62,943 bases of DNA, from NCBI GenBank assembly GCA_009377795.1, contig WHTJ01000006.1:1-62943 (forward strand), written 5' to 3'. Position 1 is the stretch's first letter; every line of letters begins with the position of its first letter. The notes beneath the pieces are model-generated. The model saw only the letters and a list, made by a program, of their open reading frames with translations. It ran no database searches and was not told the DNA's origin. This document shows positions 2,676-60,506 of this stretch, one piece after another. This DNA comes from Propionibacteriales bacterium. GTDB lineage: Bacteria; Actinomycetota; Actinomycetes; Propionibacteriales; Nocardioidaceae. The translations under genes and the position numbers were made by a program.

Positions 2676-3221
2676 ATGGACGATCGCGCACAACTGATCG
2701 AGCAGATCAAGCAGAAGGCCGTGGTGCACGGCAAGGTGACGTTGTCCTCCGGCCGGGAGGCCGACCATTACGTGGACCTGCGGAGAGTCAGTCTCGACGC
2801 CGAGGCCGCGCCGGTGATCGGGCGGGTGATGCGCGATCTCACCTCCGATCTGAAGTACGACGCAGTCGGTGGACTGACCCTCGGCGCCGACCCGGTGGCG
2901 ACGGCGATGTTGCACTCGGCCGCGGCCGAGGGTGCGGGTGTGCGGCTCGACGCGTTCGTCGTACGCAAGGCGGAGAAGACCCACGGGCTGCAACGCCGGA
3001 TCGAGGGACCGGACGTCGCGGGACGGCGGGTACTCGCGGTCGAGGACACCTCGACGACCGGGGGATCGGTGCTGACCGCGGTCGAGGCCCTGCGCGAGGC
3101 GGGTGCGGACGTCGTCGCGGTGGCGGTCATCGTCGATCGCGACACGGGCGCGCGGGAGCGGGTGGAGTCCGAGGGACTGGAGTACCGCTACGCGATCGGC
3201 CTCGCCGACCTCGGCCTCTGA
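2676..3221 (+). CDS. pyrE: orotate phosphoribosyltransferase
   Basis: Converts orotate and PRPP to orotidine 5'-monophosphate in pyrimidine synthesis. The 181-residue protein has the phosphoribosyltransferase PRPP loop VLAVEDTSTTGGS at 119-131 and the flexible-loop lysines in VRKAEKTHG (96-104). Length and motifs fit the short bacterial PyrE class. Its TGA stop (3219-3221) directly abuts the stop of the convergent aldolase gene, leaving no room for an intergenic terminator. Other pyrimidine synthesis genes are not in the window. Confidence 0.92.
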   Translation: MDDRAQLIEQIKQKAVVHGKVTLSSGREADHYVDLRRVSLDAEAAPVIGRVMRDLTSDLKYDAVGGLTLGADPVATAMLHSAAAEGAGVRLDAFVVRKAEKTHGLQRRIEGPDVAGRRVLAVEDTSTTGGSVLTAVEALREAGADVVAVAVIVDRDTGARERVESEGLEYRYAIGLADLGL

Positions 3222-4353: not shown

Positions 4354-4403
4354 TCGCGCCGAGATTGCACTTGTGGTCGACCACAAGTGCAATCTCGGCG
4401 CGA
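4354..4403. repeat. element A, full palindrome (copy 1)
   Basis: A perfect 50-bp palindrome between the SpoU methylase and fba genes. Each arm carries the conserved outer part (TCGCGCCGAGATTGCAC and its complement); the inner part is the copy-specific TTGTGGTC/GACCACAA. It can form a long hairpin in either transcript. There is no flanking T-run, so it is not a canonical terminator, though it could still stop or stabilise a transcript. Confidence 0.92.
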
Positions 4404-4410
4404 GAGAAGC

Positions 4411-4436
4411 GGCCAGAACTGCAATCTCGGCGCGAA
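4411..4436 (+). repeat. element A, single half-unit
   Basis: One half-unit (GGCCAGAACTGCAATCTCGG then CGCGAA) in direct orientation 7 bases after the palindrome at 4354-4403. This order, a palindrome followed by a direct half-unit, recurs at 12855 and 45215. Confidence 0.88.
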
Positions 4437-12843: not shown

Positions 12844-12854
12844 GGAACTGTTTC

Positions 12855-12910
12855 GCGCCGAGATTGCACTTCTGGCCGACCTTGGTCGGCCAGAAGTGCA
12901 ATCTCGGCGC
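12855..12910. repeat. element A, full stem-loop (copy 2)
   Basis: Two 27-base arms (outer GCGCCGAGATTGCAC, inner TTCTGGCCGACC) pair perfectly around a 2-base TT loop just after the purB stop. The inner arm sequence differs from copy 1, yet is fully compensated. It may act as a transcript end, although no T-run follows. Confidence 0.92.
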
Positions 12911-12920
12911 AAGGGGAGCG

Positions 12921-13116
12921 GGCCTGATGTGCAATCTCGGCGCGAAGGACATCTAGCGTGGCGAGAAATGGCTGATGTCTCCGAGATTTGGCGACCAATC
13001 CGCGCCACACAATGTACAACCAGAGCCAGAACGCGCCACGCATGGCCATGGCCCGACGGGCAGATGTGCAGTCTCGGCGTGAGGGGGGCGGCCTGATGTG
13101 CGATCTCGGCGCGAGA
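12921..13116 (+). repeat. cluster of element A half-units between purB and purC
   Basis: Three direct half-units lie at 12921-12946 (perfect core GTGCAATCTCGGCGCGAA), 13061-13083 (GTGCAGTCTCGGCGTGAGG, two changes) and 13091-13116 (GTGCGATCTCGGCGCGAGAG, one change). A family B repeat sits between the first and second. The decay gradient suggests copies of different age. The last copy ends 25 bases before the purC start, so its GCGAGAG end is part of the purC leader. The rest of the purB-purC gap shows no gene. Confidence 0.85.
12957..13040. repeat. family B hairpin repeat, copy 1 (84 bp)
   Basis: An 84-bp block matching 53466-53549 at about 70 percent, equal in length. Its ends are imperfect inverted repeats (CGTGGCGAGAAATGGCT against the complement of AGCCAGAACGCGCCACG) and an inner TGGCG...CGCCA pair suggests a nested hairpin. 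On the minus strand both copies can be read as a similar peptide with FWLW, WR and QPF in common. I treat it as a structured DNA repeat, not a gene. Confidence 0.75.
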
Positions 13117-15860: not shown

Positions 15861-15918
15861 GGCCAGATGTGCAATCTCGGCGCGAGAGGTGCGGCCAGTT
15901 GTGCAATCTCGGCGCGGG
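15861..15918 (+). repeat. two tandem direct half-units of element A
   Basis: Half-units at 15861-15887 and 15893-15918 share GGCCAG(A/T)TGTGCAATCTCGG then CGCG, 32 bases apart start to start. The second ends three bases before the stop codon of the convergent TetR gene. No inverted partner is present, so unlike the full copies they cannot fold into a long hairpin. Confidence 0.9.
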
Positions 15919-18802: not shown

Positions 18803-21800
18803 CTAAGGTCCGACGGTGCGGGCACGGGTGGCAGCGGCGAGCGCGGCGACCGCTTGGGTGAAGACCTCGGCCGGAGGGGTGACGAGTCCGGCGCCGACCT
18901 GGCCCGTGCCGGCGACCTTGCCGGCCATGCCGGTGTTGATCTGCGGCAAGATGCCCGTACGTGCCACGGCGGTGACGTCGATTCCGGTGGGTACGCCGCG
19001 GAACTCCAGCGCGGGGATCGTCCATCGGGAGCTCTCGGCCAGGGTGATCTCGTACATCCGCCGGGTGGTGCTCAGCGCGTCCGGCACGCTGCCGCCGACG
19101 AACCGCACGATCGCCGGCGCGGCCGCCATGGCGAAGCCGCCCAGCCCCGCGGTCTCGGCGATCGCGGAGTCGCCGATGTCGGGGTTGGCGTCGTCCGGCC
19201 CGAAGTCGCCGAGGTAGAGGCCGTCGGGGATTTCGGCGGGTGCGGTGAACCAGGTGTTGCCGGTTCCGGCGACCTGGATGCCGAAGTCGGTGCCGTTGCG
19301 GGCCATCGCGACCACCATGGTGGATCCCTCGATGTCGCGGGCGGCGTCGAGGGCGAGCTTGCAGGTGGGCATCGCGAGGTTGAGAAAGAAGTGGTCGTTG
19401 TTGCCGATGAACCGCACCGCGTCGGCGATGTCGTCTCCCGGCGTACCGGACGCGATCATCGCGGGCACCAGGTCGCGCATCAGCATCAGGGTGCCGGCCC
19501 GGTTGCGGTTGTGCGCCTCGTCGCCCATCTGCAGCATCTGGGTGAGAATCCCGGTCACGTCGACCGGGCCGGTCTCCCGCACGGCGTACTGCAACAACGG
19601 CCCGAGCACGCGGCCCATCCAGCGCAGCCGGTCCAGCACGTCCGGCCCGTACGCGCCGTACCGCAGCACCTTGCCCAGACCCTCGTTCAGTGAGCAGTAC
19701 GTGCGCCGGCCGGTGTCGGCGTCCTCGAGCACGAACATCCACATCGAGGCCGACACGACACCGGCCATCGGCCCGACCGCGCCATGGTGATGGCATGGGT
19801 CGAGGGTGACGCCCCGGCCGGACTCCAGCAGCGGCACGGCGTCCTCGGGCCGTTCGGCCAGGCCCTCCAGCGCACACGCACCCATGAGCGCGCCGCGGAG
19901 CGGACCGGCGGCCAGCTCCCACGTGACCGGCGGGCCGGCGTGCAGGAAGTCGCCCGGGCTCAGCCCCAATGCCTCACTCGCGGGTACGACGTCGACGAGC
20001 ATCGCCTGCGTGCCCAGGACCCGGCGTACCGCCTCGGCGTTCGCGTTCTCGCGGAGCGGGTCGGCGGCCACCGTCGCCAGGTCGTTGCCGGTTCCCGGCA
20101 TCGGTGGCCGCCACTCGACCCGGCGTACCCGGCCCGCCTGAGCGGCGATGGAGTCCGCCAGCAGATCCGCCCCGACTGCCACGATTGACGGCTCGTCGAG
20201 CAGCCCTTCGCGCCGAGATTGCACATCTGGCCGCTCTTTTCGCGCCGAGATTGCAGAAGTGGTCGATCTGCGGTCGGCCACTTCTGCAATCTCGGCGCGA
20301 GAGTGGGGGGCGTGACCGGTCAAGAGCGCGAGCGCGGCCCGGGTGGCCTGGGCGTTGGAGGCGAAGACCCAGGCACCGGCGGCGGCCAGAGCCTCCGCCT
20401 GCCGGTGCAGGTCTTGTGGGTCTGCGGTGGTGCCGATGCAGCTGACGACGACCGGCAGGTCCCGGCCCTGCTCGGCGGCGGCCGCACGGGCGGACCGGAT
20501 GGCGGGTGCCAGGTCGGCCGCCGGGTCCGGGTGGGCGGCGTGGCCGAGTACGACGTCGAGCAGGAGTACGCCGGTCGCCGGGTCCGCGGCGTGTTCGGCC
20601 AGGTGTTCCAGCCGCAAGGTCGGGTCGATCATCGGATGCGCGCGACCAGCGGTGAGCCGATCGTCGCCGAAGTCGATCATCAGATGCCCGCCGGCCGTGA
20701 GTGACTCATCCAGGGCGAGTTCCGGGCTCAACGGGATGTTGCTGCGCACCGGCCCGAGCTCGTCGGTCGTCAGCAGCATGGCCTCGTCGCAAAGCGTGCC
20801 ACCGCAGAACAGCCCCCGCAGAAGGCCCATTTTTCCGCGCCGAGATTGCACATCTGGTCGACCAGATGTGCAATCTCGGCGCGAAGGAACGCCCCAAGTG
20901 GGCCAGGTCGGCACGTCGTACCCCAATGTGGTCAGCAGCTCCTCGGCGGCGACCGTGAGATCCGGCCGGCCGGGCCCGAGGAGCGCCCACTGGACCGGCG
21001 TACCCAGGCTCGCCGCATGGTCCTCCAACGCCGCGGCCACGTCGGGAGCCGGCGGCTTGGAGATCACCACGATCCGCTCGGTCGCCGGGTCGGCGTCGAG
21101 CATCCGCAACGCCTGCCGGGTCGCCAGCCCGCCGATGGCCGCGGACAGGTCGCGGCCCCCGACGCCGAGCGCCGCGCTGACCCCGGCGCCGGCCGCATCG
21201 AGCAGGGCGAGCAGCTGCTGGCATCCCGTACCGGACGCGGCCACGATGCCCACCGGACCGGGGCGTACGGCGTTGGCGAAGCCCAGCCCGAGCCCGCCGA
21301 CCACGGCGGTGCCGCAGTCCGGCCCCATCACCAGCAGCCCGCGCCGGTCGGCCTCGGTCTTGATCCGGACCTCCTGCTCCACCGGCACGTTGTCGCTGAA
21401 CACCATCACATGCCGGCCCGCCTGCAACGCGTCCATCGCCTCGGCGAACGCATACTGTCCGGGCACCGACACCAGCACCAAGCCCGCGTCGTCCCCCCGG
21501 CGCAACGCCGACCCGGTGGTGCGCGCGGCTACGTCCTCCTCGACACCGACCATCGGGCCCGACGAGGCGGCGGCCAGCGCGGACTCCACGGCCTCCAGCC
21601 CGATCGCCGAGTCCAGCCCATCACGCACGCGTACGGCGACCACCATGTCGGTGGGCGAAGCCTCCGGCACCTCGAATCCCATGTCTTCGAGCAGTTCCAG
21701 GTTGAGCGGCGTCGCCATGGCGACCATCGCGGTCTCCACCCCGCCGACCGACGACACGTCGCGGCTCACCTGCATCAGGGTCACCGAATCCGCATAGGAG

Positions 21801-21829
21801 CCGCGGCGGACCTCCACATGCTCGGCCAT
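18803..21829 (-). CDS. fdrA: FdrA-DUF1116 fusion (candidate oxamate/acylurea carbamoyltransferase subunits)
   Basis: The 1008-residue product joins an FdrA-like protein (about residues 1-509; acyl-CoA synthetase-like fold with MGPDCGTAVVGGLGLGFAN and LLRGLFCGGTLCDEAM) to a DUF1116/YlbE-like protein (about 542-1008; LDPCHHHGAVGPMAGV, FIGNNDHFFLNLAMPT). In E. coli these are separate genes, which together with a DUF2877 gene have been reported to encode oxamic transcarbamylase (oxalurate plus phosphate to oxamate plus carbamoyl phosphate). Two in-frame element A insertions lie at residues 316-332, in a linker inside FdrA, and 510-541, exactly at the fusion joint. The start ATG overlaps the DUF2877 stop by one base. 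Whether the product stays fused is unknown. Confidence 0.85.
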   Translation of the reverse strand: MAEHVEVRRGSYADSVTLMQVSRDVSSVGGVETAMVAMATPLNLELLEDMGFEVPEASPTDMVVAVRVRDGLDSAIGLEAVESALAAASSGPMVGVEEDVAARTTGSALRRGDDAGLVLVSVPGQYAFAEAMDALQAGRHVMVFSDNVPVEQEVRIKTEADRRGLLVMGPDCGTAVVGGLGLGFANAVRPGPVGIVAASGTGCQQLLALLDAAGAGVSAALGVGGRDLSAAIGGLATRQALRMLDADPATERIVVISKPPAPDVAAALEDHAASLGTPVQWALLGPGRPDLTVAAEELLTTLGYDVPTWPTWGVPSRRDCTSGRPDVQSRRGKMGLLRGLFCGGTLCDEAMLLTTDELGPVRSNIPLSPELALDESLTAGGHLMIDFGDDRLTAGRAHPMIDPTLRLEHLAEHAADPATGVLLLDVVLGHAAHPDPAADLAPAIRSARAAAAEQGRDLPVVVSCIGTTADPQDLHRQAEALAAAGAWVFASNAQATRAALALLTGHAPHSRAEIAEVADRRSTTSAISARKERPDVQSRREGLLDEPSIVAVGADLLADSIAAQAGRVRRVEWRPPMPGTGNDLATVAADPLRENANAEAVRRVLGTQAMLVDVVPASEALGLSPGDFLHAGPPVTWELAAGPLRGALMGACALEGLAERPEDAVPLLESGRGVTLDPCHHHGAVGPMAGVVSASMWMFVLEDADTGRRTYCSLNEGLGKVLRYGAYGPDVLDRLRWMGRVLGPLLQYAVRETGPVDVTGILTQMLQMGDEAHNRNRAGTLMLMRDLVPAMIASGTPGDDIADAVRFIGNNDHFFLNLAMPTCKLALDAARDIEGSTMVVAMARNGTDFGIQVAGTGNTWFTAPAEIPDGLYLGDFGPDDANPDIGDSAIAETAGLGGFAMAAAPAIVRFVGGSVPDALSTTRRMYEITLAESSRWTIPALEFRGVPTGIDVTAVARTGILPQINTGMAGKVAGTGQVGAGLVTPPAEVFTQAVAALAAATRARTVGP
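20207..20300. repeat. element A inside the fdrA-DUF1116 gene at the fusion joint (half-unit plus stem-loop)
   Basis: On the plus strand, a half-unit at 20207-20232 (TTCGCGCCGAGATTGCACAT...) is followed by a stem-loop at 20240-20300 with perfect 23-base arms (inner AGAAGTGG/CCACTTCT) and a 15-base loop. Read on the gene strand it encodes about 32 Arg/Ser-rich residues, including RPDVQSRRE, without a stop. The DUF1116-like sequence resumes immediately after it. Confidence 0.93.
20836..20883. repeat. element A inside the FdrA part (perfect 48-bp palindrome)
   Basis: A perfect 48-bp palindrome (16 codons) with inner arm CATCTGGTC/GACCAGATG. In the gene frame it encodes SRRDCTSGRPDVQSRR. It lies just before the conserved LLRGLFCGGTLC segment that starts the second FdrA domain, so it occupies an interdomain linker. 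Its length is a multiple of three, so the frame is preserved. Confidence 0.95.
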
Positions 21830-22662
21830 CAGACCACCCGGGTGACTGTGACGTCTTCGACAGACACGTTGGCGGGTCGCGCCGAAAACGTCACGCTCAA
21901 CGGATCATCGAGGGCGAGCGCGGACCCCAACGCCAACCCGGCACCCGAGGTATGTCCCACCGCCAGCAACCGCGACATCGCCGGTTCGACCGACTCGCCT
22001 GCATGTCGGGCCTGCAGCACATCCCGCAGCTGAGGGATGGTCTCGCCCACCGCGGCACGGAGCAGCAGGGTCGCGGACAGCGGTGCCGTACGACCCGCCG
22101 CCACCTCCCGCTCCACCGCATCCGCGACCCGCCCGCACGGGCGGCCGGCCGCACGCCGGGTCACCAGCCACCCGGCCAGCACGTCGTCACCCACTGGGGT
22201 CAGGCCGCCGCCCCGCCCCAGCAGCGCGTCCACCGCCGCCGGGGCGCCGTCGGCCAGCCGAGACAGCGCCGCCTCGGGCAGCTCGGCGCGTACGGCGGCT
22301 AGCGAATCGTCGTACGCCGCATACGCACCGGCCGGCACGGGCTCCGAGCGTTCCAGGCCGGGCAGCCGCGGAACCCCCGGATCCACCAGCCGCCTCACCC
22401 GCACGTCGTACCGCCCCCACGACACCGACCCGCCACCCACCACCGCCGCGTCCCCGGCCTCGGGCAGAACAAGCCGGGTCGTCCGCAGCCCACACGGCAA
22501 CCACACCGCGCGTGCGGCGAGGACGCCGATCCATGCCCCGCCGACATCCACATACGCCGCATGCGATCCGCGTGCCACCACGGGCACCGTGCGTGGCGGA
22601 CCCGCGACCCGCTCCGCCACCCACGGCGAGGTGGCGGCGGCCACGGTGGTGCGCGCAGTCAC
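21829..22662 (-). CDS. DUF2877 family protein (YlbF/AllH-like)
   Basis: A 277-residue protein of the DUF2877 family, the third partner of FdrA and DUF1116 in the reported oxamic transcarbamylase. The family core LLGRGGGLTPVGDDVLAG is at 148-164, with APLSATLLLRAA and LLAVGHTSGAGLALG further on. It is first in a minus-strand operon: its TGA and the ATG of the fusion gene share one base (TGATG). The last ~20 residues are encoded by a family C repeat (residues 257-272), so the C-terminus was probably altered by the repeat. The start is GTG. It is divergent from the permease gene. Confidence 0.82.
   Translation of the reverse strand: MTARTTVAAATSPWVAERVAGPPRTVPVVARGSHAAYVDVGGAWIGVLAARAVWLPCGLRTTRLVLPEAGDAAVVGGGSVSWGRYDVRVRRLVDPGVPRLPGLERSEPVPAGAYAAYDDSLAAVRAELPEAALSRLADGAPAAVDALLGRGGGLTPVGDDVLAGWLVTRRAAGRPCGRVADAVEREVAAGRTAPLSATLLLRAAVGETIPQLRDVLQARHAGESVEPAMSRLLAVGHTSGAGLALGSALALDDPLSVTFSARPANVSVEDVTVTRVV
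21847..21894. repeat. family C repeat, copy 2, in the 3' end of the DUF2877 gene
   Basis: Arms GTGACGTCTTCGAC (21847-21860) and GCCGAAAACGTCAC (21881-21894) pair at 12 of 14 positions around 20 bases. About 80 percent identical to 17679-17729 over 51 bases. It is translated as part of the DUF2877 C-terminus. Confidence 0.75.
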
Positions 22663-22796
22663 TTGGCTGGGCTCCCGTCCGATCCGGTCCGCGCGAAGGT
22701 ACCGACACGTTCCCCATTTGCGACACTATCCGCCGCCCTCGCGAGCACACTAGGGTCAGGTCGGGTAGGGGCGGTGCACGCGCTGAGGAGGTCACC

Positions 22797-24239
22797 GTGG
22801 CTATGTTCGGTTGGAAGGTCGTGCACGGGGGCAAGACGCCACCCCCGGGCGGCGTGGTGGCTCCCGACGAGCGCCTGTCGTGGCCGCGGATGGCCGGGTT
22901 CGGTGCACAGCACGTGGTCGCGATGTTCGGGGCGACGTTCGTCTTCCCGATCGTGATGGGGCTCGACCCGCAGCTCGCGGTGATGATGTCCGGCGTTGCC
23001 ACGATCCTCTTCCTGCTGATCGTGCAGGGAAGGGTGCCGAGCTACCTGGGTACGTCGGCGTCGTTCGTCGGCGGTGTGTTCGCGATCCGCGCGGCCACCG
23101 ACAGCGACTCGCTGGTGACCGGCTCGATCATGATCGCGGGCGTCGTGCTGGCGCTGACCGGAATCCTGATCACGCTGCTCGGGATCCAGGCGATCCACCG
23201 GGTGTTCCCTCCGGCCGTGACCGGTGGCGTGGTCATGCTGATCGGCTTCGGGCTGGCCTTCGTCGTGGCCGACACGTACTGGCCACAGGACCGCTGGGTC
23301 GCGAGCCTGACCATGCTGGCGACGTTCCTGTTCACCGTGGTGCTGCCCGGCTTCTGGGGCAGGATCGCCGTACTCCTCGCGTTGATCTTCGGCTACGTGT
23401 TCTCGTGGTTCCTCGACCTGAGTGCCGGACCGATCACGTCCGTCCTGCCCGGCGCGAACCTGCGCGACGCGGCGGGCGAGCCGTGCGACGCCGAGGGGCC
23501 GTACTGTGTCGCGACCGCGTTCTCCCACGACCGGGTGAGCTTCGACGCGGTCGGTGACGCCGCGTGGATCGGTCTGCCGACGTTCCATGGGCCGTCTTTC
23601 GAGGTGTCCGCGATCATCCTCGTACTCCCGGCCGTGATCGCGCTGATCGCCGAGAACACCGGTCACGTCAAGGCGGTCGCCGAGATCACCCGCCGTGACC
23701 TCGACCCGATGATCGGGCGCGCGATCTTGGCCGACGGCGTGGGTACGGCGGTGTCCACGAGCGTCGGCGGTTCGCCGACGACGACGTACGCCGAGAACAT
23801 CGGCGTCATGGCGGCGACCCGGATCTACTCCACCGCCGCGTACTACATAGCCGGCGGGATCGCGATCCTCTTCGGGCTGTGCCCGAAGTTCGGCGCCTTG
23901 ATCGCGGCGACGCCCGGCGGTGTGCTCGGCGGCATCACGGTGGTCCTGTACGGGATGATCGGCCTGCTCGGCGCGAAGATCTGGATCGAGAACCGTGTCG
24001 ACTTCGCCAACCCGATCAACCTGGTGCCGATCGCGGCCGGGATCATCCTCGCCGTCGGGCCGGTCTCGCATCAGATCAGCGAGGACTTCACCCTGGAGGG
24101 CATCGCCCTCGGCACCATCGTGGCGCTCGCCGGCTGGCATCTACTGCGGTCGCTGGCTCCGGCGCACTTCAAGCAGATGCTGGAGGACGAGCGGATCCAG
24201 GCGATCAACGACGCGCAGGCCCGGCGCGACGAGGGGTGA
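22797..24239 (+). CDS. NCS2 (UraA-type) nucleobase permease
   Basis: A 480-residue NCS2 transporter with about 12-14 membrane helices, predicted to import a nucleobase by proton symport. The substrate-site motifs are AENTGHVKAVAEIT (near 285) and PTTTYAENIGVMAATRIYST (near 326). The second matches the UraA/PyrP uracil branch better than the xanthine (XanQ) branch, which favours a pyrimidine-like substrate. GAGGAGGT (22785-22792) supports GTG 22797; ATG 22803 is possible. The 134-base divergent gap to the DUF2877 gene probably holds both promoters. The stop is followed by TCTCGGCGAGGGAG, a possible element A remnant. Confidence 0.9.
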   Translation: MAMFGWKVVHGGKTPPPGGVVAPDERLSWPRMAGFGAQHVVAMFGATFVFPIVMGLDPQLAVMMSGVATILFLLIVQGRVPSYLGTSASFVGGVFAIRAATDSDSLVTGSIMIAGVVLALTGILITLLGIQAIHRVFPPAVTGGVVMLIGFGLAFVVADTYWPQDRWVASLTMLATFLFTVVLPGFWGRIAVLLALIFGYVFSWFLDLSAGPITSVLPGANLRDAAGEPCDAEGPYCVATAFSHDRVSFDAVGDAAWIGLPTFHGPSFEVSAIILVLPAVIALIAENTGHVKAVAEITRRDLDPMIGRAILADGVGTAVSTSVGGSPTTTYAENIGVMAATRIYSTAAYYIAGGIAILFGLCPKFGALIAATPGGVLGGITVVLYGMIGLLGAKIWIENRVDFANPINLVPIAAGIILAVGPVSHQISEDFTLEGIALGTIVALAGWHLLRSLAPAHFKQMLEDERIQAINDAQARRDEG

Positions 24240-24297
24240 TCTCGGCGAGGGAGGATGGAGCTGTGCTATCGCGTTCCGGGGAGGTGAGCACGCACCG

Positions 24298-25737
24298 GTG
24301 AAACCGCGGCCGTTTGCCTATGCCCGCCCGGACGGCGTCGACGAGGCCGTCTCGATGCTGGCCGGGCATCCGGACGACGCGAAGGTCCTTGCCGGTGGGC
24401 AGAGCCTGATCCCGCTGCTGTCGATGCGGCTCGCGGCTCCGGCGATACTGGTCGACATCAACCGGATCGGGGAGCTCGCGTACGTCCGGACCGACGAGGA
24501 CGGCGTGCGGGTCGGCGCGGTCGCGCGGCACAGCGACGTCGAGTACGACGAGGCGGCGGCCGCCGCGCAACCCTTGCTGCGCAAGGCGCTGCGACTGGTC
24601 GCGCATCCGACGATCCGCAACCAGGGCACGGTCGTGGGCTCGATCGCGCATGCGGACCCGGCCGCCGAGCTGCCGTTGGCGCTCACCCTGCTGGAGGGCG
24701 CCGTCACCTGCCGGTCGCGCGGTGGCGAGCGGCGGATACCGGCTGCCGAGTTTTTCGTTGGACCATTGGAAACGGCTCTGGCGCCCGATGAGCTGGCGAC
24801 CGAGGTCTTCTTCCCCGTGCTGCCGGCGGGCAGCGGCACGTCCTATCGCGAGATCTCCCGGCGGCACGGCGACTACGCGGTGTGCGGGGTGGCGGCCGTC
24901 GTTCGGGTGGACGGGCAGGGTGCCGTGGTCTCGGCGCGGGCCGGCTACCTGTCGATGGCGCCGACGCCGTACACCGTGGACCTCACCGTGCCACTCCACG
25001 GCGGTCGCGTCGACGACGGCACGGCATTGGATGGCGCCGTCCAGCTCGCGACTGCGACTGTGGAGCCGGGTACCGACGTCCACGCGACCGCGGACTACCG
25101 CCGCCATCTGGCCGGAGTACTGACCCGCCGTGCGCTACACGAGGCCTACGCCAAGGCCGTGCAGAGTTCTGACTCCTCCCCCCGAGATTGCACATCTGGT
25201 CGACCAGATGTGCAATCTCGGCGCGAAAAAAGGGGACGACGCTCTCCCGCGAAGACGCACGACATCCGGCTGCACGTCAACGGGACGGCGTACGACGTCA
25301 CCGTCCCCGCGCGGCGGTTGCTGTCCGACGCCCTCCGCCACGACCTCGGGCTCACCGGCACGCACGTCGGCTGCGAGCACGGCGTCTGCGGCGCCTGCAC
25401 CGTGCTGATCGACGGGGAGCCGACGCGCTCGTGCCTGATGCTGGCGGTAGCCGCCGAGGGCCACGAGATCACCACGGTCGAGGGTCTCGCCGAGGACGAC
25501 GGCACCCTCGGACCCGTACAGCGGGCGTTCAAGGAGTGCCACGGCCTGCAATGCGGGTTCTGTACGCCCGGGTTCCTGACCACGGTCACCGCCGGTCTGC
25601 GGGACAACCCGGCGCCGACGCGCGAAGAGGCGCGGGACATGGTGGCCGGAAATCTCTGCCGCTGCACGGGATACCAGAACATCGTCGCCGCAGTCCTCGG
25701 AGCCGCCGAGCAAGCGCCGGAGACGGTGGCGCCATGA
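24298..25737 (+). CDS. molybdenum hydroxylase FAD subunit fused to 2Fe-2S subunit
   Basis: A 479-residue product that joins two normally separate subunits of the xanthine dehydrogenase family. Residues 1-~290 are a CoxM-like FAD domain (AGGQSLIPLLSMRLAAP; HPTIRNQGTVVGSIAHADP). Residues ~318-479 are a CoxS-like iron-sulfur protein with the plant-type cluster CEHGVCGAC (from Cys359) and the helical-domain cluster CGFCTPG...NLCRCTGY. The linker at about 295-315 is an element A palindrome read as RDCTSGRPDVQSRRE. There is no stop between the parts; an in-frame GTG inside the element could also start a separate CoxS. The gene overlaps the large subunit by ATGA. The start is GTG 24298. Confidence 0.87.
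   Translation: MKPRPFAYARPDGVDEAVSMLAGHPDDAKVLAGGQSLIPLLSMRLAAPAILVDINRIGELAYVRTDEDGVRVGAVARHSDVEYDEAAAAAQPLLRKALRLVAHPTIRNQGTVVGSIAHADPAAELPLALTLLEGAVTCRSRGGERRIPAAEFFVGPLETALAPDELATEVFFPVLPAGSGTSYREISRRHGDYAVCGVAAVVRVDGQGAVVSARAGYLSMAPTPYTVDLTVPLHGGRVDDGTALDGAVQLATATVEPGTDVHATADYRRHLAGVLTRRALHEAYAKAVQSSDSSPRDCTSGRPDVQSRREKRGRRSPAKTHDIRLHVNGTAYDVTVPARRLLSDALRHDLGLTGTHVGCEHGVCGACTVLIDGEPTRSCLMLAVAAEGHEITTVEGLAEDDGTLGPVQRAFKECHGLQCGFCTPGFLTTVTAGLRDNPAPTREEARDMVAGNLCRCTGYQNIVAAVLGAAEQAPETVAP
25182..25221. repeat. element A at the FAD/2Fe-2S joint (40-bp perfect palindrome)
   Basis: CCGAGATTGCACATCTGGTC and its exact complement. The right arm continues into the standard GCGCGAA end, while the left outer end is altered (CTCCCCCCGAG), so one end has decayed or was cut on insertion. 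It encodes the same peptide, in the same frame, as the copy at 20836. Confidence 0.94.
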
Positions 25738-28142
25738 CCACGAGGTTGTTCGGCGAGCCGATCCGGCGGGTGGAGGACGAGCGGCTGCTGCGCGGAGACG
25801 GGCAGTACGTCGACGATCTAGGCTCGGACGCCCTGCACCTGGCCGTCGTACGCTCGCCACACGCGCACGCCCGCATCGTCGACATCGACGTCGACGCCGC
25901 GCTGGACGTCGACGGGCTGGTCGCGATCTACACGTACGACGACCTCACCGGCCCGCTCGCCGAGCCGCTGCCCCTGCTGATCCCGCATCCGAATCTCACC
26001 CAGGGGCGTACTCAGTACGCCCTCGCCAAGGACGAGGTGAACCACGTCGGCGAGGCGGTCGCGATGGTGGTCGCCACCGACCGCTACGCGGCCGAGGACG
26101 CCGTGGACCGGATCGACGTCACCTACGAACCCCTGCCCGCGGTCGTCGGCCTCGACGCGGCTCGCCGGGCGGAACACCTCGTGCACGACGACGTACCCGG
26201 CAACGTCGCGGCCCGCATGGGCCAGTCCAACGGCGACGCCGCGTCGGCGATCGCGTCGGCGCCGCACCGGCTGAGCCTCGACCTCCAGATCGAGCGGAGC
26301 GCCAGTACGCCGCTCGAGGGCCGGGGCGTGCTCGCCCGATGGGACACCGAGGCGCACCGAATGCGGGTCTGGTCGTCCACCCAGACCTCGACCGGCGTCC
26401 GGGCGGCGATCGCGGCCAAGCTGGGTCTCGACCTCGGCCAGGTCGACGTCATGACGCCGGATGTCGGCGGCGGCTTCGGGGTGAAGATCGTGCATCCGTG
26501 GCCGGAGGAGGTGATGGTGCCGTTCGCGGCGCGGGCGCTCGGTCGCCCGGTGAAGTTCACCGAGGACCGGCGCGAGCACTTCGTCTCCGCCGCGCACGAG
26601 CGCGCGCAACAGCACCACGTCGAGGTCGGATTCGACGACGACGGCCGCATCCTCGGACTGGCGGTGAGGTTCTGGCACGACAACGGCGCCTACACGCCGT
26701 ACGGCCTGATCGTCCCGATCATCAGCTCGACCCAGCTGCTCGGGCCGTACAAGCCGGGTGCCTACACCGTCGAGTTCGAGAGCCTCTACACCAACACCGT
26801 GATCGTCACTCCCTATCGGGGTGCGGGACGGCCGCAGGGCGCCTTCGTGATGGAACGCACGGTGGACGCGATCGCCCGCTATCTCGGCAAGGACCGCATC
26901 GAGGTCCGGGAGACCAACTTCATCCAGCCGCAGGAGATGCCGTACGACCACGGTCTGGTGTTCCAGGATGGCAAGCCGCTGATCTACGACTCGGGCGACT
27001 TCCCGGCCACTCTGGACAAGCTCAAGAAGCTGGTCGGCTGGGAGGAGTTCGAGTCCTTCCGAGCGCAGGCTCGTGCCGAGGGGCGGCGGGTCGGCATCGG
27101 GCTGGGTTGCTATGTCGAGGGCACCGGGGTCGGGCCGTACGAGGGCGGGCACGTGCAGATCGAGACCAGCGGCAAGGTCAAGGTCGCGACTGGGCTGACC
27201 TCGCAGGGGCAGGGGCATCAGACGGTCTTCGCGCAGGTGGTCGCGGACGAGCTCGGCGTACCGATCGAGGACGTCGAGGTCGTCACCGGTGATACCCGAA
27301 GATTTCCTTATGCGGTGGGGACTTTCGCCTCACGGGCGGCGGTGATGAGCGGTTCGGCGATCGCGCTCGCCGCCCGCAAGGTGCGGGCCAAGGCGCTCCA
27401 CATCGCTGCGGATGCGCTGGAGGTGGACGAAGCCGACCTGGAGATCGTCGACGGCGTGGTACAGGTCCGGGGCGCGTCGAAGAACCAGATCGCGCTTGGG
27501 ACGGTCGCCGTACTCTCCAACCCGCTGCGGTACGCCTTCGACCGGGCATCGGTCGCGGCCACCCAGTTCGCCGTCGGGGACCCGACGCAGCCTCCCGTTC
27601 CCGAGGGCCAGGAGCCGGGTCTCGAGGGCCGCGACTACTACTCGCCGAACCAGTCGACCTTCGCCAACGGGATGCACGCCGTCGTGGTCGAGACCGACCC
27701 GGACACCGCGGAGATCTCGATCCTGCGGTATTGCGTCGTGCACGACTGCGGCCCGATGATCAATCCGCGAGTCGTGGAGGGGCAGATCCACGGCGGGGTG
27801 GCGCAGGGCGTCGGAGGAGCGTTGTACGAGCGGATGGCGTACGACGAGCACGGACAGCTGGTCAACGCGTCGTTCATGGACTTCCTGATGCCGTACGTCA
27901 CCGAGATCCCCGACACCATCGAGATCGACCATCTGGAGACGCCGACCCCGTTGAACCCACTGGGGATCAAGGGCGCCGGGGAGGCCGGGGTGATCCCCAC
28001 CGCGGCAGCGCTCGCGGCCGCGATCGAGGACGCCGAAGGCTTCCCGATCACCCGGATGCCGATCTCACCCTCGGATCTGTTCGAGCTGCGGCGGCTCCAT
28101 GCTCAGGGGGACGCCGGCTCGGAGAGGAGCGACGACCGATGA
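25734..28142 (+). CDS. molybdenum hydroxylase large (Mo-cofactor) subunit, xanthine dehydrogenase family
   Basis: The 802-residue catalytic subunit hydroxylates a substrate using water. Visible motifs are GGGFGVKIVHPWPEE, PYRGAGRPQGAFVMER (near 360), LTSQGQGHQTVFAQV, and the active-site glutamate region IKGAGEAGVIPT (near 745). The loop lacks AYRCSFR, so it is not a true CO dehydrogenase; it belongs to the broad CoxL-like/xanthine dehydrogenase group. With the UraA-type permease and barbiturase upstream and downstream, a pyrimidine such as uracil is a possible substrate, by analogy with actinobacterial uracil/thymine dehydrogenase. ATGA overlaps on both sides tie it to its neighbours. Confidence 0.92.
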   Translation: MTTRLFGEPIRRVEDERLLRGDGQYVDDLGSDALHLAVVRSPHAHARIVDIDVDAALDVDGLVAIYTYDDLTGPLAEPLPLLIPHPNLTQGRTQYALAKDEVNHVGEAVAMVVATDRYAAEDAVDRIDVTYEPLPAVVGLDAARRAEHLVHDDVPGNVAARMGQSNGDAASAIASAPHRLSLDLQIERSASTPLEGRGVLARWDTEAHRMRVWSSTQTSTGVRAAIAAKLGLDLGQVDVMTPDVGGGFGVKIVHPWPEEVMVPFAARALGRPVKFTEDRREHFVSAAHERAQQHHVEVGFDDDGRILGLAVRFWHDNGAYTPYGLIVPIISSTQLLGPYKPGAYTVEFESLYTNTVIVTPYRGAGRPQGAFVMERTVDAIARYLGKDRIEVRETNFIQPQEMPYDHGLVFQDGKPLIYDSGDFPATLDKLKKLVGWEEFESFRAQARAEGRRVGIGLGCYVEGTGVGPYEGGHVQIETSGKVKVATGLTSQGQGHQTVFAQVVADELGVPIEDVEVVTGDTRRFPYAVGTFASRAAVMSGSAIALAARKVRAKALHIAADALEVDEADLEIVDGVVQVRGASKNQIALGTVAVLSNPLRYAFDRASVAATQFAVGDPTQPPVPEGQEPGLEGRDYYSPNQSTFANGMHAVVVETDPDTAEISILRYCVVHDCGPMINPRVVEGQIHGGVAQGVGGALYERMAYDEHGQLVNASFMDFLMPYVTEIPDTIEIDHLETPTPLNPLGIKGAGEAGVIPTAAALAAAIEDAEGFPITRMPISPSDLFELRRLHAQGDAGSERSDDR

Positions 28143-28768
28143 GGATCGCCGGAGACGCCGTACTCCATGCGCCGGTCGGGGAGGTCTGGGACGCGCTGCT
28201 CGATCCCGCGATCCTGGTGCGCACCATCCCCGGCTGCGAGCGGCTGGAGTCCACGGGGGAACACACATACGCGATGACCGTGACCGCCGGGGTCGCCTCG
28301 ATCACGGGTACGTACGCCGGCACGGTGGAGCTGCGCGACCTCGACCGGCCGAGATCGTTGACCATGAGGATCGCCGCTTCCGGCGCACCAGGAACCATCG
28401 GCGCCGACGTGAACGTGACATTCTCCGGCGACGATGACCACACCACGCGGCTCGCCTATGAGGCGGACGCGGTCGTGGGCGGGACGGTCGGCGGCGTCGG
28501 CCAGCGGATGCTCACCTCGGTGGGCAGGCGCCGGGCGGGCGAGTTCTTCACCGCGGTGGACGACGTGCTGACCGGACAGGCGCCCGCAGCCGCGGTGGAC
28601 GGTGGCCGTACGCCGTCCTCCGGGACGGACTCGGAAGTCGGCACGGTCTTCACCGCACCTGCCCGCACGACGGGACGCGACGACTTCTCCAAGGGACTCG
28701 TCGTCGGCGGCGGGCTGGTGCTGCTCGGGGTCGTCGCCGGAGCCGTCGCGAGTCGGCGCAGGCGCTGA
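28139..28768 (+). CDS. CoxG/SRPBCC family protein with C-terminal membrane anchor
   Basis: A 209-residue protein: an SRPBCC lipid-binding-like domain (residues ~1-145; VWDALLDPAILVRTIPGCE, family-typical), a linker, and a C-terminal helix GLVVGGGLVLLGVVAGAVAS ending in RRRR. CoxG-type proteins have been described as attaching CO dehydrogenase to the membrane and linking it to quinones; an equivalent role for this hydroxylase is likely. ATGA overlap with the large-subunit gene indicates one operon. The hydrophobic anchor supports membrane attachment of the enzyme. Confidence 0.87.
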   Translation: MRIAGDAVLHAPVGEVWDALLDPAILVRTIPGCERLESTGEHTYAMTVTAGVASITGTYAGTVELRDLDRPRSLTMRIAASGAPGTIGADVNVTFSGDDDHTTRLAYEADAVVGGTVGGVGQRMLTSVGRRRAGEFFTAVDDVLTGQAPAAAVDGGRTPSSGTDSEVGTVFTAPARTTGRDDFSKGLVVGGGLVLLGVVAGAVASRRRR

Positions 28769-29375: not shown

Positions 29376-29402
29376 GGCCAGATGTGCAATCTCGGCGCGA
29401 GG
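29376..29402 (+). repeat. element A half-unit upstream of the amidase gene
   Basis: GGCCAGATGTGCAATCTCGG then CGCGAGG, 42 bases upstream of the amidase ATG. The frame of its GTGCAATCTCGG (VQSRRE) is open into the amidase gene. The AGGAGG made by its end sits 2 bases before an in-frame GTG at 29408. Confidence 0.9.
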
Positions 29403-32526: not shown

Positions 32527-34544
32527 CGAGACCGCGGCGTCGAGTCCGGCGCCCACCCGGTTTCCGTTCGGCATGCTGACCGCCGACGCCGGCGCGTCGG
32601 TCGACCCCGTCGTACTCGAGATCGTTCAGGGCAGCCTCGCGTCGGTGGAGAAGGAGGTCGAGACCGCGATCGCACGGACGTCGCGGTCGCCCATGATCAG
32701 GGATGCGCACGACTTCCGCGCGGGAATCCACGACCGGCTTCTGCGCAAGCTCACCGGCCGTTCCTACAGCGCGCTGGTGCATCCGGTGGTACGTGACTTC
32801 CCGCTGGAGGAGATGCGTCCGGGCGATGTCTTCTTTCACAACGACGTATACGAATCCGAGGGTGGGATCGGCCACCTGCCCGATCTCTGCGTGACGGTCC
32901 CCGTAATCTCGGCGCGAGGGGGCGCGCGAGGGGGCGCGCGAGGGGGCGCGCGAGGGGGCGCGTGAGGGGGCGCGTGAGGGGGCGCGTGAGGGGGCGCCGG
33001 AGGTGGTGGCGTTCGTCCAGGCGTTCGGACACCACGACGACATCGGCGGAGCCGTGCCGGGGTCGATGCCGAGCGAGGCGACCTCGGTGTTCGTGGAGGG
33101 ACTGATGGTCCCCCCGATCAAGCTGTGGGAGGGCGGGCGGCCGAACCGGGCGGCGCTCACGATCATGACCCGGAACACCCGGATGCCGGAGTCGCTGGCC
33201 GCCGACCTCGATGCCGAGTGCTCGGCCTGCCTGATGGGCGCGCGGCGGCTGGGCGAGCTGTTCGAGCGGTACGGCCTGGAGACCGTCGAGGCGTGCTTCG
33301 ACGCGATCATCGACCGTACGACGCAGACCTACCGCCGGGAGATCCTCTCCAAGATCCCGGTCGGCCAATGGGTGTGGGAGGACTACGCCGAGCACGACGG
33401 CGTCGACCCGCCGACGCTGCACCGGCAGCGCATCACCCTCACCCGGACTCCGCCGGAGGACCCGGACGGCGAGCAGCTGGTGATCGACTTCGCCGGCACG
33501 TCTCCGCAGGCCAAGGGGCCGATCAACCACTGCGGGGACTATTCCGACGGGGTGTTCCTCAAGAAGTGGCTCGCGCCGATACTCCGCAATCTCGCCGACT
33601 CGCCCGAGCGGATGGCCGAGCTGGACGTCAACGAGGGCGTCGTGCCGCTGATCGAGATGCGGTTCCCCCCGAAGGGCACTCTCCTCACGCCGGAGTTCCC
33701 GGCGCCGACCAACGCGCGTACGTTCGTGATCCTGCGGCTGCTCGGCGTGCTGGCCGGCGTACTCGCCAAGGCGGTCGACGGCCGGATGCCCGCCGACCAG
33801 GAGACGATCCGCTACACCGGGGTGTACGGCGAGGACGCCGACGGCCGGCCCTACCTGATGCGCGAGGTGCTCGGCGGCGGGTCGGGCGGCCGGTACTACG
33901 CGGACGGCGAGGACACCATCCACGTCGTCCCGGACTCGCGGAACCTGCCGACTGAGTTCACCGAGTCTCGTTTCCCCTTTGTGGTCGAGCGATTGGGCCT
34001 GGCGGTGGACTCCGGGGGACCGGGTGCCCATCGCGGCGGTCTCGGGTACGAGAAGCACATCCGGATGCTCAAGGACGCGCACTTCATGTCGATCGCCGAT
34101 CGGTCGATCCTGTCCTGCTGGGGAGTACGCGGTGGGAAGGCCGGACGGCCGTTCCAGGTCGTGGTCGACCCGGGCGGTCCGAACGAACGCGAGGTGCACG
34201 CGCTCGCGGATGCGGAGCCGGTCCGGGCAGGCGAGATCATCCGGATCCGTACGACCGGCGGCGGAGGCTGGGGTGACCCGCTCGAACGCGACCCCGAGCT
34301 GGTAGCACGCGACGTCCGATGGGGCAAGGTCTCGACCGGCGCGGCGCACGCGGACTACGGCGTCGCCATCATCGGCAACGTCGACGGCGACGATCTGGGA
34401 TACGACGCGGCCGCGACCCGCGAGCTGCGCGCCGAGCGAACCCAAGGCCGTACCGCCAACGCGGCCGACGAGCCCTTCTTCGACCGAGGACCGGGCTACG
34501 CCCAACTGGCCGGCCTGCCGTCCGCGCCAGCCGACTGGCTCTGA
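32513..34544 (+). pseudogene. hyuB: hydantoinase/oxoprolinase subunit B, frame broken at an element A-derived repeat
   Basis: Two reading frames together make one HyuB. The N-terminal part (32513-32965) includes VHPVVRDFPLEEMRPGDVFFHND-type sequence and GHLPDLCVTVPV, then runs into ISARGGARGG repeats and stops at TGA 32963. The C-terminal part (from about GTG 33003 to 34544) resumes in another frame with VVAFVQAFGHHDDIGG, a normal HyuB continuation, and ends with TTGGGGWGDPLERDP. The shift must fall between TAA 32904 in the second frame and TGA 32963. Seven G5 runs lie there, so a single-base slip would restore the frame. Either HyuB is inactive, two polypeptides are made, or the sequence has an indel error. 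Confidence 0.85.
32904..32996 (+). repeat. element A end amplified as seven 12-bp tandem repeats inside hyuB
   Basis: TAATCTCGGCGCGAGGGGG, a mutated half-unit end, is followed in phase by seven 12-bp units from 32913 to 32996: four CGCGAGGGGGCG, then three CGTGAGGGGGCG. In the N-terminal hyuB frame the C-to-T change turns CGA into TGA. The array is GC-pure and prone to slippage. Confidence 0.93.
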
Positions 34545-35442: not shown

Positions 35443-35468
35443 TTCGCGCCGAGATTGCACATCTGGCC
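35443..35468 (-). repeat. element A half-unit after the dioxygenase gene
   Basis: TTCGCGCCGAGATTGCACAT then CTGGCC, in the inverted orientation, 6 bases after the dioxygenase stop. No second arm is present. The rest of the ~197-base gap before carbamate kinase shows no gene. Confidence 0.9.
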
Positions 35469-37741: not shown

Positions 37742-37803
37742 TTCGCGCCGAGATTTCCGCAATCACGGCGCAAAAAGCGTGCAGAGGTGCAATCTCGGCG
37801 CGA
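37742..37803. repeat. element A, compact hairpin plus half-unit at a convergent gene end
   Basis: TTCGCGCCGAGATT (37742-37755) and AATCACGGCGCAA form a short imperfect hairpin, followed by a direct half-unit GAGGTGCAATCTCGGCGCGA at 37784-37803. Located between the converging barbiturase and DUF2269-like genes. The degenerate inner part suggests an internal deletion of a full copy. Confidence 0.8.
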
Positions 37804-45214: not shown

Positions 45215-45330
45215 TCGCGCCGAGATTGCAGTGGCGGTCGACCAGATGTGCAATCTCGCCGCGAAGAAACGGCCAGATGTGCAATCTCGGCGCGAGAGGG
45301 ACGGGCCTGATCTGCAATCTCGGCGCGAGG
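45215..45330 (+). repeat. element A cluster: palindrome plus two direct half-units
   Basis: An imperfect palindrome (45215-45264; the right arm has CTCGCCGCGA for CTCGGCGCGA and the inner arms do not fully pair) is followed by half-units at 45271-45296 (GATGTGCAATCTCGGCGCGAG) and 45304-45330 (GATCTGCAATCTCGGCGCGAG, with one change). Start-to-start spacing of the half-units is 33 bases, close to the 32 seen at 15861. Confidence 0.92.
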
Positions 45331-60477: not shown

Positions 60478-60506
60478 TCGCGCCGAGATTGCACATCTCG
60501 GCGCGA
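60478..60506. repeat. element A, compact palindrome at a convergent gene end
   Basis: TCGCGCCGAGA and TCTCGGCGCGA (11-base perfect arms) around TTGCACA. The inner half of the normal palindrome is missing, as if deleted between the CA repeats. The preceding CCCTTTTT gives a T-run for the minus-strand transcript's complement, and the position suits a bidirectional terminator. Confidence 0.9.

Follow-up and report, generated by a model that had tools for sequence, protein, structure and literature searches.

The 62,943-nucleotide (nt) stretch of contig WHTJ01000006.1 from a Propionibacteriales bacterium, hereafter the window, contains palindromes that are probably copies of an interspersed repeat similar to the REPINs (hairpin-forming pairs of repetitive extragenic palindromic sequences, REPs), with a home at the 3' ends of genes, rare in-frame copies in coding sequence, and two apparent gene fusions formed through the repeat. 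A first-pass annotation had described the palindrome as a repeat that is stop-free in all six frames and carried in frame inside enzymes. Intragenic copies of REPs and REPINs have been published before; what appears to be new is that operon neighbors seem to have been fused through such a repeat, in an open reading frame (ORF) combining FdrA and AllG and another combining CoxM and CoxS.

The 16-nt arm of the palindrome, TGCAATCTCGGCGCGA, has 303 exact matches in the 4.58-Mb genome of the organism (182 contigs, 69% GC, 96.83% complete), with its reversed sequence, used as a control, giving none; at up to three mismatches the window has 29 matches against 1.29 expected. The 36-bp palindrome core gave 41 matches at the same tolerance. 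The underlying unit is oriented and about 26 nt long, TCGCGCCGAGATTGCANNNNTGGYCG; in 344 arms at up to two mismatches its conserved part is TCGCGCCGAGATTGCA, followed by four variable bases and TGGYCG and preceded by pyrimidines. At 161 sites (defined below) these units are found as singles (56 sites), as direct pairs or arrays, with a spacing of 31-33 nt in 46 of 56 direct pairs, and as inverted pairs, with a spacing of 34 nt in 46 cases (the 34-form) and 43-46 nt in 26 (the wide form). Over 82 genomic palindromes the two forms number 50 and 32, giving elements of 50-61 nt in which two inverted units flank a variable spacer, as in REPINs. Two inverted pairs that were folded form near-perfect long hairpins (-49.3 kcal/mol, z -11.9, and -58.3 kcal/mol), and inner arms of the wide form fit their own partners with 1.28 mismatches, as opposed to 3.23 with shuffled partners (0 of 2000 shuffles were as good). 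Four single units, three from this genome and one of the variant found in a genome from another genus (G009), gave z values of -1.95, -0.83, 0.67 and 0.47. The spacing classes, inverted 34 and 44-45 and direct 31-33, differ by about one helical turn and might reflect a DNA-bound protein.

The context of the repeat was studied in 114 stretches around listed arms together with the window, with genes called by our own codon-usage script. Four fifths of the exact arms (243 of 303) fall in these stretches, which were picked for the elements in them and therefore do not sample the genome at random. They contain 187 sites; an exact arm is present at 166 of them, and setting aside those within 300 nt of the end of a stretch leaves 161. 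Degenerate arms in ORFs at position 32902 of the window and position 2651 of locus L012 were excluded for lack of an exact arm. Although 86.6% of the sampled DNA is coding, 153 of the 161 sites are intergenic, seven are within ORFs and one overlaps an ORF start. Thus, the repeat is not specialized for genes, and its home is at gene 3' ends, close behind stop codons, with few copies touching coding sequence. Stop codon and element are separated by a median of 20.5 nt (interquartile range 11-45, modal bin 10-14, n=200), with 98 of 200 distances to the facing stop codon being below 20 nt. Of the 84 sites in co-directional gaps, 50 are no more than 25 nt from the upstream stop, whereas random placement gives 19.6 (standard deviation 3.5, maximum 30 in 500 trials). 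One orientation predominates, at 121 of 157, among arms that face a gene 3' end at a distance of up to 60 nt. The sites are distributed over 84 co-directional, 58 convergent and 10 divergent gaps, as against 221, 76 and 94 among all gaps of at least 40 nt. This is the mostly intergenic placement, near 3' ends and in convergent or co-directional gaps, that is typical of REPs. Likewise, all 12 distinct sites in 11 loci of G009 (14 rows, two of them duplicates) are intergenic, as judged with the codon model trained on the genome studied here.

Such a distribution could also be that of a transcription terminator or stabilizer of mRNA 3' ends under selection at gene ends, with the in-gene copies being accidental. 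The position and orientation behind stops, the favored convergent gaps and the strong hairpin are in line with this proposal, but we regard it as rather unlikely. The flanks are reversed relative to an intrinsic terminator, which has a hairpin followed by a U tract: here, as seen without a terminator scan, pyrimidines come before the hairpin and the purine-rich side after it. Moreover, single arms are frequent, only one of the four folded single units clearly beats shuffles, and among 245 genomes the repeat is limited to two, apart from one match in a third.

Of the copies within genes, the one at 20835-20884 lies in a 1008-residue ORF that matches the profiles of both FdrA and AllG (Pfam AllG 3.2e-96 and Ligase_CoA 3.6e-36; NCBIfam FdrA 5.8e-130), between the two domains of the FdrA part. 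The linker measures 69 nt between its flanking anchors, in contrast to 27-48 nt in each of the 20 relatives compared, and judging from this alignment with element-free orthologs the copy is an in-frame insertion in the FdrA interdomain linker. In an AlphaFold2 model of FdrA residues 1-509 the mean pLDDT (predicted local distance difference test score) is 86.5, with the block 321-330 between the two domains at 51; residues 90-104, which are unconnected with the element, are below 50. The description as being carried inside enzymes holds for this copy; the copies at 20208-20300 and 25177-25226 instead lie at junctions between genes that are separate ORFs in relatives. At the first of these junctions, three arms are read as RAEIAEVADRRSTTSAISARKERPDVQSRRE within the same 1008-residue ORF. 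Here fdrA and allG make up a single ORF, with a stop-free gap of 132 nt; all 20 relatives have them as two ORFs, with gaps of 17-86 nt.

The second junction is in a 479-residue ORF in which a CoxM-like flavin adenine dinucleotide (FAD) subunit is followed by a CoxS-like 2Fe-2S subunit. A comparison of 48 loci, three of them with one subunit only, shows coxM and coxS as separate ORFs in all 45 relatives that have both, one of these having a truncated FAD ORF; the gap is 126 nt here and 26-119 nt in relatives (47 loci, plus one misplaced anchor). The xanthine dehydrogenase small-subunit model TIGR02963 also matches the ORF, below its cut-off. Molybdenum hydroxylases are known to have natural fusions that combine the FAD and 2Fe-2S parts in one chain, usually with 2Fe-2S first and FAD second, whereas here FAD precedes 2Fe-2S and the two are joined via the repeat.

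Translations bear out several statements of the first-pass annotation: a single peptide, in one frame, is common to the palindromes at 20835-20884 and 25177-25226, the third site adds about 31 translated codons, the protein downstream of each of the three sites stays in the VQSRR frame, and the peptides it gave for the in-gene frame are those of the ORFs. The putative FdrA-AllG and CoxM-CoxS proteins are likely translated as single fused polypeptides. Alternatively, AllG and CoxS might restart at the GTG within the element (GTG CAA TCT CGG CGC, read as VQSRR), or the fused ORFs might be decayed or mis-assembled genes. The VQSRR frame indeed precedes both AllG and CoxS and contains the called start of PrmC; an out-of-frame TGA (25170-25172) lies 4 nt before the coxM/coxS copy, and intergenic copies are often close behind a stop codon. 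Nevertheless, we find this explanation fairly improbable: there is no in-frame stop between the joined genes, no Shine-Dalgarno-like sequence was seen by eye before the GTG, the GTG is within a very stable stem, and the same frame runs through the linkers of FdrA and of a biotin carrier protein (below), where a restart would split one protein.

In the scenario we favor, new copies of the REPIN-like repeat would arise by a mobile, copy-out process, and those entering genes would be removed except where they keep the frame and land in a flexible region. The in-gene copies observed here would be the survivors; they sit in linkers, in a loop, at the ends of genes and at gene junctions, and there the unit could be translated as a short spacer. 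At fdrA/allG and coxM/coxS, which overlap or lie close in relatives, the repeat has probably replaced the stop/start junction, and being stop-free and in frame would then join the two genes into one ORF. A stronger version, in which the repeat is a ready-made translated linker that makes bifunctional FdrA-AllG and CoxM-CoxS chains, with selection keeping the hydrophilic SRRDCTSGRPDVQSRR frame in genes, is a tentative proposal that we consider somewhat less probable than its contrary. Should fusions of this type be real, domain fusions at operon junctions could arise from a common kind of extragenic repeat, a testable route to new multidomain enzymes.

The remaining ORF-touching sites provide further cases of translated copies. 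In a biotin carboxyl carrier protein, the palindrome is in the SRRDCTSGRPDVQSRRE frame, which is that of the other in-gene palindromes, and aligns with the stretch preceding the biotinyl domain of PDB chain 4hr7_B, presumably a flexible linker; the protein had no relative in 60 other genomes of the family at E 1e-10. RsmB has a single in-frame unit in a loop of 99 nt, as against 51-75 nt in 24 relatives, amounting to about 30 added nt. Its AlphaFold2 model has a mean pLDDT of 92.6, and the only segment below 50, residues 300-309, overlaps the inserted unit (RAEIAHQ from residue 304). Two further ORFs, in loci L171 (three arms) and L172 (one arm), have copies near their C-termini. Upstream of prmC, the palindrome at 2994-3043 of locus L012 includes the GTG called as the start of this gene (VQSRREGG), and the repeat may supply its start codon. 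When the first arm is read at each site, six of the eight ORF-touching sites use the SRRD/VQSRR frame (p 0.02 for the named frame, 0.06 for any), a preference that is suggestive only; at the RsmB and fdrA/allG sites the first arm is in the RAEIA frame. All four 34-form palindromes that touch genes share one frame (p 0.012, or 0.037 for any frame).

These in-frame copies and the shared frame of the four palindromes are what one would expect of a gene-targeting, protein-coding repeat spread because it is stop-free, comparable to the Rickettsia palindromic elements (RPEs). We consider such an origin very improbable, as only eight of the 161 sites touch genes in DNA that is largely coding, and stop-free palindromes are common by chance. 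The stop-free property, singled out earlier as noteworthy, proved to be close to chance expectation: shuffling the halves yields stop-free palindromes in 14.2% (mononucleotide) and 17.5% (dinucleotide) of cases, and building palindromes out of random window 25-mers does so in 49.9%. In addition, 14 of the 82 genomic palindromes contain a stop triplet (4 of 50 of the 34-form and 10 of 32 of the wide form). Hence, the stop-free palindrome was rejected as a sign of adaptation to coding.

The repeat has a narrow distribution. In a search of 39 genomes of relatives, the present one included, the exact arm was found in two. Looser patterns gave 37 direct and 72 inverted matches in the genome studied here, 66 direct and 16 inverted in G009, one direct match in a third genome, and none in the other 242 of 245 family genomes. 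G009 has a dialect of the repeat, with the same architecture and a different consensus, and because the two consensus sequences differ, we infer that amplification probably took place within each lineage. No Rfam family matched the window at gathering scores, and no match came from an exact-pattern scan of a named genome collection, from which the organism's own or very near records may have been left out; the letters of the arm had no match in the literature searched.

The REPIN-like architecture (as defined in PMC8049555) raises the question of whether the element is a true REPIN driven by a REP-associated tyrosine transposase (RAYT) or a miniature inverted-repeat transposable element (MITE) of a resident IS200/IS605 element. 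The Y1_Tnp domain is found in exactly two of 61 family genomes, which are the two carrying the repeat in number, with no match in the other 59. The only match in the present genome is a frameshifted IS200/IS605-type copy (locus L146, contig C26, 3672-4038), that of G009 (locus L267, contig C33) being intact. Each adjoins an ORF that we read as a putative TnpB, in the IS605 arrangement. However, no arm was found at up to three mismatches on the 5,959-base contig of the first, or at up to two mismatches in the 7,001 bases around the second. Neither the GTAG nor the CGTC tag of the REP superfamilies was found in the position-by-position composition of the 344 arms with 30 bases on each side. No RAYT was recognized in the genome, although at 96.83% completeness one may lie in the missing part. 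No target-site duplication recurs at offsets 0-8 and lengths 3-10 in 40 + 23 simple pairs, and the best direct duplication, of 3 nt, is seen in 4 of 40 (no null was computed). The correlation with Y1_Tnp may be one of shared ancestry because G009 has the highest RsmB identity (65%) among the genomes searched, and co-occurrence is a lead with no proof of a partner. A RAYT or MITE origin, which we hold to be distinctly unlikely, was rejected as having no supporting tag, target duplication or neighboring arm, with the correlation (2 of 61) being confounded by kinship.

Certain results count against the REPIN-like interpretation. In addition to the lack of recurrent target-site duplication, the frameshifted state of the only Y1_Tnp match and the absence of arms from its contig, these include the behavior of the 34-form, whose inner arms are uncoupled (554 of 2000 shuffled partners were equally good), and that of the bases beyond the arms, which pair no better than shuffled ones in either form and do not extend the stem. 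Among the arms facing gene 3' ends, 36 of 157 point the other way. The frame preference is modest, at six of eight sites, with later arms in L171 and at fdrA/allG in other frames. The exact ends of the insertions, which alignment with element-free orthologs had been expected to define, cannot be fixed because host linkers vary in length. Finally, the out-of-frame TGA calls for caution, since a single-base mutation or error towards the coxM end might have created that fusion, and the genome is an assembly of 182 contigs.

Among known systems, REPs provide the closest comparison: they too occur as singles and as inverted pairs, are numerous, and lie by 3' ends in gaps between convergent or co-directional genes (PMC3733652, PMC8049555), and in several species some copies inside ORFs encode extra residues (PMC3733652). 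In contrast to them, the element described here is without the GTAG/CGTC tag and a recognized RAYT, the four single units folded were not consistently hairpins, and its direct arrays have a spacing of 31-33 nt. As the tests for tag and recognized RAYT gave no positive result, we term the element REPIN-like and do not file it as a REPIN. RPEs, proposed previously as the known parallel, are likewise palindromes, read in frame as part of proteins unrelated to one another (PMC10969869, PMC3767692), and FdrA and RsmB, when compared to element-free relatives, have the frame-preserving insertions typical of them. They are a fair analogy, but not the only precedent, given the ORF copies of REPs published for several other bacteria (PMC3733652). 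RPEs are 100-150 bp long and belong to Rickettsia and Wolbachia, whereas the present element is of 50-61 nt, is mostly extragenic, joins neighboring genes in two copies and resides in an unrelated host with a 69% GC genome, whose named protein relatives are mostly actinobacterial. MITEs are similarly small, non-coding and dispersed with inverted repeats; the difference is that here no target-site duplication was seen to recur and nothing resembling an arm was found next to the transposase copies. An actinobacterium-like lineage joins the genomes in which palindromic repeats appear to be read as protein, with element-free relatives locating the insertions.

Table 1. Repeat copies of the window and the ORFs carrying them (arrowheads represent arms in order)
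Feature	Coordinates	Strand	Context
1008-residue ORF, FdrA (AllF) + AllG, oxamate carbamoyltransferase subunits	18803..21829	-	profile matches
Three arms <<>, spacing 32 and 45	20208..20300		fdrA/allG junction, stop-free, one ORF; ~31 codons
50-nt palindrome, two inverted arms 34 apart	20835..20884		in frame, FdrA/AllF interdomain linker; encodes SRRDCTSGRPDVQSRRG
479-residue ORF, CoxM-like FAD + CoxS-like 2Fe-2S subunits	24298..25737	+	upstream of CoxL-like large subunit; profile matches
50-nt palindrome	25177..25226		coxM (FAD)/coxS (2Fe-2S) junction, one ORF; encodes PRDCTSGRPDVQSRRE
Intergenic element <>>	4354..4435		16 nt from stop of minus-strand gene
Intergenic element <>>	12853..12945		9 nt behind stop codon
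Degenerate intergenic pair >>	13067..13114		no exact arm, outside the 161 sites
Intergenic pair >>	15870..15917		between convergent genes, 3 nt from stop
Single intergenic arm	29385..29400	+
Single arm	35444..35459	-	7 nt behind stop codon
Inverted pair	37743..37803		between convergent genes, 11 nt behind stop
Four intergenic arms <>>>	45215..45328
Single arm, shortened hairpin	60478..60493	-	convergent genes, 10 nt behind stop

One cluster of the window, 18803-28768, contains three of the eight copies that touch ORFs in the sampled part of the genome; it comprises AllF-AllG-AllH, a nucleobase permease and a carbon monoxide dehydrogenase-like operon. A 12-nt tandem repeat, GCGCGAGGGGGC, is present at 32902-33007, beside a degenerate arm at an ORF end.

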